DNA of 64,000 nucleotides from Fodinibius sp. Rm-B-1B1-1. Its GTDB lineage: Bacteria; Bacteroidota; Rhodothermia; Balneolales; Balneolaceae. Location of the stretch: positions 186,001 through 250,000 of the forward strand of contig NZ_JBCFYD010000002.1 in NCBI RefSeq assembly GCF_038594945.1. The letters run 5' to 3'. Positions within the stretch are counted from its first letter, which is position 1. Every line of letters begins with the position of its first letter. The notes beneath the pieces were generated by a model. The model was not told the origin of the DNA, searched no databases, and worked only from the letters and a program-made list of their open reading frames with translations. Shown in pieces: positions 31,359-37,151 of this stretch. The translations under genes were made by a program, and so were the position numbers.

Positions 31359-31560
31359 CTAATTATATCGATTAGTTTGAAAGAAATGTTTTACTGAAGA
31401 TAGGATCTATAGAATATAAGGTAAATTAATTTCTTGATGGGATGATGAAATTTTTGGGAGACAGGTTCGATACATTTATAATAGTATTCTCTATAAAAAA
31501 TTTATATAATCCACAACACGTTGCGAAAAGGGTACTTGTCATCAATAAAATTAAGTAATC

Positions 31561-32592
31561 ATGGATATTTCAGTATTTCCAAGCGTATATGAATCAACGC
31601 GATCAGATTTAAGCGGAGTTAGTAACGACTTATTGAGCGGTCTCAAGATCGACTACAACGATGAGTCATATATTATTGGCGAATTAGCGCTTCAAGAAGG
31701 GCTTTCACCTCATCGACTTATTAATACAGCTCCCGGAGAGTTAGATTTTGACGTGCTTTTTCGGGCAGCATTGCTGCTGGCGCAAGAAAAAGCTGGGAGC
31801 GACTTTTCCATGACCATGGGTTTTCCCTTTGAGATGTATCAAAAGCACAGCGATATGGCGAAGCAGCGACTAACTAAGTCATTCGATGTGTTGTATGACA
31901 GTTCTACTTTTGCTACGAATGGAGCAACCGGCAAGCAAGCAGCAACTATTCAGCTGCGAAATGTAGACGTCATTCCCGAGATTGCCGGTAGTATTATTTC
32001 ATTGCGGTATGGTGACTATCGCGAAGAAGATGATTTCTTTGTTGTAAGTCTTGGATATGGTTCGATGGAGGGAGTTGTTAGTACCGATAATGGTATTATT
32101 CGCCGAACGGCTACCAGTACGCACGGTATTCGTTATGCAGTAAATATGATGAAGGAAGAGCTACAGAAGGATTACTATCTCGGTTTCAAAACTGAGCATC
32201 AGCTCAACGTCGCTTTCAAAAACGGCAAAATTAATATTGACAAGCGTAATATTGACCTTACTGCCCTGCGCCGAAAAGTGCTGAAGTCATATTTCCAGAA
32301 TATTATTCATCCGGCCCTGGCAAATGCATTTCAGGATTCTGATTTTGCCGATTGTTCAACCATGTACCTGGTAGGAGGAGGTGCTTATTTTAGTGAGCTC
32401 ACGAACTTAATATCCGATGAATTTGAGGGTATTCTTAATATCGAAATTCCTGATAAGCCCGAACAGATGGCTGTTAAAGGATATTGTCTGAACACTGCAA
32501 TGCAGTTTGAAGGAGAAGGTACGCCCGTTGGAATTGATATGGGGAATGCCAATACCCTTATTGCAATTATGGATGAAGAGGTAGGGGCATAG
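31561..32592 (+). CDS. ParM/StbA-like actin-fold protein with relocated phosphate-1 motif
   Basis: A 343-residue actin-superfamily protein in an unusual order. The N-terminus begins at FPSVY (6-10), the segment that normally follows the first hairpin of ParM/ALP proteins. GELALQEG (40-47), MGFPFEMYQK (86-95), phosphate-2-like VVSLGYGSME (161-170) and the adenosine motif YLVGGGAYF (269-277) follow. After MAVKGYCLNTA, where such proteins usually end, comes VGIDMGNANTLIAIMD (323-338), which is a phosphate-1 motif. In canonical proteins this is at residues 1-20. A stop codon 9 bp upstream of ATG 31561 rules out an N-terminal extension. The phosphate-2 Asp is replaced by Ser163. This looks like a circular permutation. 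A bactofilin gene follows after 9 bp, so a cytoskeletal role is inferred. Confidence 0.75.
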   Translation: MDISVFPSVYESTRSDLSGVSNDLLSGLKIDYNDESYIIGELALQEGLSPHRLINTAPGELDFDVLFRAALLLAQEKAGSDFSMTMGFPFEMYQKHSDMAKQRLTKSFDVLYDSSTFATNGATGKQAATIQLRNVDVIPEIAGSIISLRYGDYREEDDFFVVSLGYGSMEGVVSTDNGIIRRTATSTHGIRYAVNMMKEELQKDYYLGFKTEHQLNVAFKNGKINIDKRNIDLTALRRKVLKSYFQNIIHPALANAFQDSDFADCSTMYLVGGGAYFSELTNLISDEFEGILNIEIPDKPEQMAVKGYCLNTAMQFEGEGTPVGIDMGNANTLIAIMDEEVGA

Positions 32593-32601
32593 TATTGCAA
32601 G

Positions 32602-32952
32602 GTGGACGAACGTAATACTTTTATTAGCAAGGATTCCTCATTTGAAGGTGATATTTCTGCCAATCGTATTGTGGTGGCAGGAACAGTGATAGGAAATCTT
32701 ACGGCTTCTTCTACAATCATTCTTCAGGAATATGCCCAGATAAGGGGAGATATAAAGGCCCCCAAAGTATATATTGCTGAAAATTGCTATCACGAGGGCC
32801 TGATTTGCCTTGGAGATCCCGACAAACCTGCTCCGGAGAAAATAGATATTGGGAGCTCGAAATCCGAAGCCGTTGAGGATGAGATCAAATCCGAGAGTAA
32901 GTCCGAGAAAACTGTTTCTGTTTCCCAAAAGAAGAAAAACAAGCTGTGGTAA
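32602..32952 (+). CDS. bactofilin-family cytoskeletal protein
   Basis: A 116-residue bactofilin (polymer-forming, DUF583). The core at about 5-70 shows the repeating beta-helix pattern FEGDISANRIVVAGTVIGN, LTASSTIILQEYAQIRG and KAPKVYIAENCYHEG. A charged, Ser/Lys/Glu-rich tail ending KKKNKLW is probably disordered and may bind membrane or partners. Bactofilins form nucleotide-free filaments involved in cell shape, polar localisation or cell-wall enzyme recruitment. The start is GTG at 32602, 9 bp after the actin-like gene, so the two are almost certainly one transcript. A terminator follows at 33026. Confidence 0.85.
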   Translation: MDERNTFISKDSSFEGDISANRIVVAGTVIGNLTASSTIILQEYAQIRGDIKAPKVYIAENCYHEGLICLGDPDKPAPEKIDIGSSKSEAVEDEIKSESKSEKTVSVSQKKKNKLW

Positions 32953-36554: not shown

Positions 36555-37151
36555 ATGAAAGAGCTTGCCGATTATGATTTTGCCAAAGTGATGGATTACC
36601 CGGATCGCAGGGACAAACTGTATGTGTTTGATTTTTCGGAAGGATATGACGCCGATTTTATTGAGACTAAGGATTGGGGCATTGGTAAATACAATGAACA
36701 GCGTTCCAACATGTACTTAGCTTCTCAGTATAATAATGAGCGTAACGTCCACATGGGGATTGATATCTGGACGGAAGCGGGAAATCCGGTCTATTCATTT
36801 TGGGATGGCAAAGTAGCCTACATGCAAGATAACGATCAGGCGGGGGATTATGGCCCCACTATTGTTATCGAGTATCAGTTAAAAGATCAGGTATTGTACA
36901 CTTTGTATGGACACCTCGCAAGGGAAGCACTGGATAGAGTAACGATTGGCCAGAAAGTGAAAAAGGCGCAACAGATTGCTACGCTTGGTGCCTCGGAAGT
37001 TAATGGGGGATGGGTACCGCATCTTCATTTCCAGTTATCAGTCGAAGATCCGGGAGAGGCCGATATGCCGGGCGTGGTAGCACCTGCTAACAGAGAAAAA
37101 GCCCTGGAAAAATATCCTGACCCCCGGCTGGTGATGGGCAATTTGTATTAG
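36555..37151 (+). CDS. M23-family (LytM-like) metallopeptidase without signal peptide
   Basis: A 198-residue protein with the complete LytM active-site set: His66 and Asp70 in NVHMGIDIW, His120 in LYGHLA, and His156/His158 in PHLHF. Such enzymes cut glycine or stem-peptide bonds in peptidoglycan with a zinc ion. Oddly, the N-terminus (MKELADYDFAKVMDYPDRRD) is charged and has no signal peptide or membrane helix, and no upstream in-frame start supplies one. So it may act in the cytoplasm on recycled fragments or small peptides, or leave the cell by another route. The M20 amidohydrolase and alanine-racemase-family genes downstream fit a cell-wall peptide or D-amino-acid theme. Confidence 0.85.
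   Translation: MKELADYDFAKVMDYPDRRDKLYVFDFSEGYDADFIETKDWGIGKYNEQRSNMYLASQYNNERNVHMGIDIWTEAGNPVYSFWDGKVAYMQDNDQAGDYGPTIVIEYQLKDQVLYTLYGHLAREALDRVTIGQKVKKAQQIATLGASEVNGGWVPHLHFQLSVEDPGEADMPGVVAPANREKALEKYPDPRLVMGNLY

Follow-up and report, generated by a model that had tools for sequence, protein, structure and literature searches.

The window (the whole stretch of 64,000 nucleotides analyzed here) encodes a 343-residue protein that we consider to be a naturally circularly permuted actin-like ATPase, probably filament forming, which works together with a bactofilin in the organization of the envelope or of cell shape and not in plasmid partition. This reading is likely, with a probability of roughly 0.75; the function is inferred from the data below and not from any experiment. 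The fold and the motifs are those of the known actin-like protein (ALP) type, and it is the order of the chain that is new. A permuted motif order, running from beta3 to the C-terminal helix and then to beta1-beta2, with an intact fold is very likely.

Motif layout of the ALP

The open reading frame (ORF) extends on the forward strand from an ATG start at 31561 to a TAG stop at 32592 (31561..32592), and its assignment rests on the ORF call, the Pfam family ALP_N, AlphaFold, and VIA-align. All features described here are on the same strand. The canonical beta3/FPS segment forms the new N terminus (residues 2 to 8, 31564..31584; strand 2 to 7 in the model, with P7 and S8 conserved), and FPSVY corresponds to residues 6 to 10. 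It is followed by (i) E140, the putative catalytic Glu of the sequence VIPEI (31978..31980), which is invariant in 44/44 loci; (ii) the phosphate-2 loop VVSLGYGSME (residues 161 to 170, 32041..32070), identified in the family alignment and aligned to phosphate-2 of BiP, with Ser in place of the first Asp; (iii) the adenosine motif YLVGGGAYF (residues 269 to 277, 32365..32391), conserved in the family and the site of a weak MreB_Mbl profile match; (iv) the canonical C-terminal helix (residues 300 to 315, 32458..32505), which is helical in the AlphaFold model; (v) a linker joining the old C and N termini (residues 316 to 320, 32506..32520), located between this helix and the strand 321 to 327 of the model; and (vi) the displaced beta1-beta2 hairpin (residues 321 to 336, 32521..32568), which carries the phosphate-1 motif VGIDMGNANT (residues 323 to 332) and is supported by the model strands, the rotation test, and family conservation. 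The phosphate-1, phosphate-2, and adenosine motifs are thus all present, phosphate-2 without its first Asp, and phosphate-1 comes last.

An in-frame TAA stop codon (31552..31554) is found 5' of the ATG, separated from it by only two codons (the frame reads VIM...), so that this ORF cannot include an N-terminal hairpin. The sequence-only reading had described an actin-like protein with phosphate-1 at the C terminus and FPSVY at the N terminus, had assigned the motifs to residues 6 to 10, 161 to 170, 269 to 277, and 323 to 332, and had excluded a lost N terminus because of the upstream stop; on re-reading the ORF, all of these statements held. It did not mention the neighboring bactofilin or the departure of phosphate-2 from the canonical motif.

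Sequence evidence for a circular permutation

The family comprises 44 loci, all with the permuted order, in the Bacteroidota, Balneolota, and Ignavibacteriota, with identities down to about 34%; some of these loci are the same or near-identical contigs counted twice. The C-terminal signature G-x-D-x-G-N-[AS]-x-T was present in 43/43 members with a readable C terminus and is kept despite an overall family identity down to about 34 to 44%. The 44th locus (L034:7995-9015, Dysgonomonas sp. Marseille-P4677) was left out of this count, as its ALP is split by a frameshift that reflects either a pseudogene or a sequencing error.

The window protein matched ALP_N (PF17989) with 43.2 bits versus a gathering cutoff of 26.3, covering profile positions 20 to 147, and on natural family sequences the match begins at profile position 15 to 21. 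In a rotation test, the C-terminal hairpin segment of five diverse members was moved in silico to the N terminus and ALP_N was rescored. The scores rose from 43.2 to 50.6, 44.3 to 54.3, 43.4 to 54.5, 48.1 to 56.9, and 34.7 to 42.8 bits (gains of 7.4, 10.0, 11.1, 8.8, and 8.1 bits), and the match reached profile position 1 in 5/5 cases. Controls with a shuffled hairpin scored 43.0, 45.1, 42.7, 49.2, and 34.0 bits, a gain of no more than 1.1. Furthermore, when the family profile was compared with BiP, its C-terminal positions 315 to 338 paired out of order with the N-terminal phosphate-1 of BiP, with a weak score for this segment. The possibility that the window copy is a pseudogene was ruled out, since dN is about 0.05 to 0.12 with dS saturated or near 1, and 10 of 20 hairpin codons are changed with only 2 to 3 residues altered.

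Structure models and comparison with known proteins

AlphaFold predicted for the window protein an intact two-domain actin-like fold (pLDDT 90.8, pTM 0.90), in which residues 321 to 327 and 331 to 336 form strands (pLDDT of about 92 and 86). The model of a second member (L023) is also a confident and complete actin-like fold, with strands at 322 to 327 and 331 to 337. The best structural matches of the two models in VIA-align were Dh-cParM1 (Z 26.6/26.9; for the window model, root mean square deviation [rmsd] 3.0 over 301 residues of 8x1i), pCBH ParM (26.3/26.5), and CorM (25.0/25.1). Residues 1 to 320 match solved actin-like proteins from their residue ~20 on: residue 1 of the model aligns to about residue 20 to 25 of most of them (20 to 23 for Dh-cParM1 and pCBH ParM) and to ~60 in CorM and BeeR. 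The structural alignments are reported as sequential ranges, and that the hairpin folds in cis into the canonical beta1-beta2 slot is therefore inferred from the model and not directly measured. A match from a single-sequence PDB search was discarded as a chance match.

Since the motif order in 44 loci, the rotation test, the BiP profile match, and the AlphaFold models agree, we regard the permutation of the ALP as near certain. It had been proposed from sequence alone, with an intact actin fold and orthologs of the same order named as support; both were found. Two observations had been named that would refute the proposal. A hairpin lying outside the beta1-beta2 slot was not seen, as both AlphaFold models have an ordered C-terminal beta-hairpin, the exact slot of which was not measured; a close homolog with a normal N-terminal phosphate-1 hairpin was looked for, and none was found.

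Proteins of the ParM/ALP type (PF17989; Dh-cParM1, 8x1i; pCBH ParM, 6ixw and 6izr) are the closest known relatives by structure and by the ALP_N score above the cutoff, and they have the conserved Glu and the adenosine motif in common with the window ALP. The window family differs from them in its C-terminal phosphate-1 hairpin, in the Ser that replaces the first phosphate-2 Asp, in the absence of a plasmid or phage home, and in its bactofilin neighbor. In ParMRC partition systems, ParM has a ParR adaptor and parC repeats beside it; the recurrent neighbor seen here, as judged by neighbor clusters only, is a bactofilin. CorM of Anabaena (9rmi), a ParM-like actin, has a ParM-type fold (Z 25.0) but is aligned from residue ~60; its FPS segment is thus preceded by further sequence, as expected for the ordinary order. 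A new actin-like family that affects the morphology of a filamentous cyanobacterium is described in PMC12645912. No mention of a bactofilin or of a permutation was found in PMC12645912. The archaeal actin homolog Ta0583 (2fsj) is similar in fold (Z 24.8), but its order is canonical (aligned from residue 20). The window ALP also matched Pfam MreB-like_C (28.2 bits versus a cutoff of 27.8). MreB shares the actin fold (Z of about 21) and, like the window ALP, is known to carry Glu as the second acidic residue of phosphate-2; however, the MreB family PF06723 scored only 15.3 bits on the window ALP, below the cutoff of 27. A true MreB (462 bits) is encoded elsewhere in the same genome, and the ALP is thus an additional system.

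The nucleotide site

The phosphate-2 motif of the family is not canonical. The first Asp is replaced by S in 41, N in 2, and G in 1 of the 44 loci, and Glu occupies the second acidic position throughout the family alignment. E140, which we take to correspond to the catalytic Glu of ParM and MreB, the Asp of phosphate-1, and the glycines of the adenosine motif are all invariant or nearly so. Binding of ATP is likely, although this is inferred and no binding data exist. Filament formation as in other ParM-type actins is likewise probable and inferred, without experimental data on polymerization. In ParM and actin, the first phosphate-2 Asp contributes to Mg-water coordination and hydrolysis. Because this residue is lost, slow ATP hydrolysis and rather stable filaments would be expected, which no experiment has yet addressed.

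Distribution and phylogeny of the family

Ten copies, including that of the window, were retrieved from 59 near genomes, and 26 were found in a collection of 84,980 species genomes. The hosts are Balneolales (Fodinibius/Aliifodinibius and uncultured Balneolaceae), Bacteroidales (Dysgonomonas and Massilibacteroides), Parapedobacter, Cognataquiflexum, Chitinophagaceae, and Ignavibacteriaceae. When the phylum was sampled evenly, 23 of 394 genomes carried the family. Nearly all of these matches are end to end (the exception is a 141-bp fragment at a contig edge), with copies starting near the FPS segment and ending with GxDxGN[AS]xT. Whole-gene scores range from 526 to 420 bits with nothing below, and accordingly no intermediate with a normal motif order was found in the 394 genomes. 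All 12 ALP_N matches in this sample are permuted family members, leaving no close relative of canonical order among them.

The distribution is patchy, and most related genomes lack the family. In the tree, Parapedobacter joins Dysgonomonas, and the window clade joins Bacteroidota lineages and not other Balneolales. The patchiness and these tree joins suggest some horizontal transfer or old paralogy. A plasmid, phage, or viral origin is not supported, since no ALP match was found in 72,556 plasmids, 50,697 phages, or IMG/VR; the window itself is part of a long contig in a 3.4-Mb assembly, and its ALP is not plasmid or phage borne. Two ALP-bactofilin pairs, both permuted, are present in one genome (L088 and L089 of G190), and another genome (G237) has two ALP copies.

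A bactofilin is the recurrent neighbor of the ALP

A bactofilin gene with a GTG start (32602..32952, + strand) begins 9 bp past the ALP stop codon. Its 116-residue product matches PF04519 (49.6 bits versus a cutoff of 27.9), has a disordered tail ending in KNKLW, and is considered dedicated to the ALP on the basis of synteny. A bactofilin lies directly downstream of the ALP on the same strand in 28/44 loci; the intergenic distance is between -28 and 272 bp in 27 of these, and the other flanking genes vary between lineages. Five loci (Dysgonomonas, Massilibacteroides, and Parapedobacter) have bactofilins on both sides of the ALP, and 13/44 have none nearby, so that, as far as operon structure is concerned, the ALP does not require a bactofilin partner. 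Cotranscription of the two genes is likely. A functional partnership is likely as well; the gene pairing is shown, and interaction is inferred in the absence of contact data.

The directly linked bactofilins (downstream of the ALP in L011-L036, L075, L082, L083, and L087-L090) share an aromatic tip, defined as W or F at the last or second-to-last position, in 28/28 cases (W in 26); it follows a low-complexity tail and reads KLW, GWW, RFW, DGWF, IEW, and others. Only 2 of 29 other bactofilins from the same genomes (three of the 29 are located after a TPR gene) have such a tip (L092, ending in QDF, and L119, ending in DGWF), and one of these two is a paralog of a linked bactofilin. A Fisher test of 28/28 versus 1/28, without the paralog, gave 7.6e-15, a value that overstates independence owing to sequence kinship. 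In the bactofilin tree, linked and unlinked sequences are separate with little mixing, which is compatible with one strict clade of linked bactofilins but does not show it. ALP and bactofilin distances are correlated (r 0.62; 0/2000 permutations), and this mirror-tree signal may reflect shared history alone.

As to the loci without a bactofilin, the small ORFs downstream of the ALP were inspected for hidden partners, and no recognizable candidates were found. At L028 and L076-L078, the ALP is located between a pentapeptide-repeat-like protein (~1240 residues) and a large repeat protein (~1170 residues), an arrangement conserved in this group. At L023:7983-9278 (Sphingobacteriaceae), which has no adjacent bactofilin, the ALP carries a 99-residue tail after the motif that ends in KFLKTGMW. 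It is possible that this is a tail of the bactofilin type carried on the ALP itself; its docking on the actin domain of the same protein is unsupported, as the tail is disordered in the AlphaFold model (pLDDT of about 35).

The bactofilin BacA and the M23 endopeptidase LmdC are an established morphogenetic pair (PMC10945521). The systems are alike in that the downstream partner of the ALP is a Pfam bactofilin and that, in several relatives, the cluster also includes an M23 gene (adjacent to the unit in L015 and L084-L086); they differ in that no actin-like protein in an operon was found in the relevant sections of PMC10945521. The window encodes an M23 peptidase family protein (36555..37151, + strand; Pfam M23, 63.9 bits) that is syntenic in close relatives, and a functional link to the ALP was not shown. 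The loci L084-L086, from three genomes of one family, share a conserved gene order of an M23 peptidase, the ALP, a TPR-like protein (assigned by eye), a bactofilin, and two small genes resembling those of membrane proteins.

Proposed mechanism and alternative explanations

In the mechanism that we propose, the chain is opened at the turn between beta2 and beta3, and ~5 residues between the last helix and beta1 connect the former termini. Approaching from the C-terminal end, the phosphate-1 hairpin would pack into its own chain and rebuild a normal nucleotide pocket, a cis placement that is inferred from the model. The permuted ALP would bind ATP and polymerize as other ParM-type actins do, and the ALP and bactofilin polymers may cooperate on the inner side of the envelope, where the disordered, aromatic-tipped tail of the bactofilin would serve as a docking peptide and the paired polymers would position cell wall remodeling. 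That the system serves the envelope or cell shape is an inference from its partner genes (bactofilin and M23).

Several alternatives were considered. The hairpin might be donated in trans, such that each subunit completes the nucleotide site of its neighbor in a domain swap that couples assembly and ATP binding. A terminal hairpin on a short linker is an arrangement that allows strand exchange, and no computation performed here excludes a swap; we nevertheless consider it unlikely, as the confident monomer models (pTM 0.90) keep the hairpin ordered in one chain, with the reservation that a monomer prediction cannot show a swap. An artefact, in which the ORF is truncated or its start misplaced and a DxG motif arose near its end by chance, is all but excluded. 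Truncation or a wrong start is ruled out by the upstream in-frame stop and by the same start in relatives, and chance occurrence of the motif is ruled out by its 43/43 conservation and by the rotation gain that is lost on shuffling; nothing remained in favor of this explanation after testing.

Other alternatives accept the permutation and concern the function. The protein could be a ParM-like DNA segregation motor that is permuted and located near a bactofilin by happenstance. The nearest solved structures are indeed ParMs, one of them chromosomal (PMC12270681), and partition proteins are known partners of some bactofilins. However, no relatives were found in the 72,556 plasmids, the 50,697 phages, or IMG/VR, and the recurrent neighbor, as judged by neighbor clusters, is a bactofilin and not a small DNA-binding ParR-like gene, which makes this explanation improbable. 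It remains possible that the protein does not itself polymerize and instead assists the assembly of the bactofilin, or acts as its chaperone, in a nucleotide-dependent manner, given the ASKHA fold, the loss of the first phosphate-2 Asp, and the tight gene coupling with one bactofilin. Against it, most of the closest structural matches form filaments, and bactofilins are known to polymerize without a nucleotide or cofactor. We retain the reading of a permuted, probably filament-forming ALP that works with a bactofilin. A bolder version, which we offer only tentatively and on balance would not yet favor, is that the permuted actin and its dedicated bactofilin are a phylum-wide two-component cytoskeleton. 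Here, a nucleotide-driven polymer would be coupled to a nucleotide-free polymer via the aromatic tip, and, through the permutation, the two ends of the actin chain would lie on an outer face that suits the partnership.

Significance

The sequence-only reading knew of no permuted actin-like filament protein. Neither a natural permuted actin family protein nor an ALP-bactofilin operon was found described in the open-access literature searched (closed-access papers and preprints were outside this search), which also contained nothing relevant on a bactofilin together with a ParM or actin-like protein. Actins are highly constrained polymers. The conserved permuted family indicates that the actin fold and its nucleotide motifs survive a cut at the beta2-beta3 turn; it makes the allowed positions of the termini of the actin chain directly testable and is a natural template for tags or split reporters in actins. 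To our knowledge, cytoskeletons of the actin and bactofilin types have not been linked genetically before, and the coupling of the ALP to a bactofilin would be the first such link.
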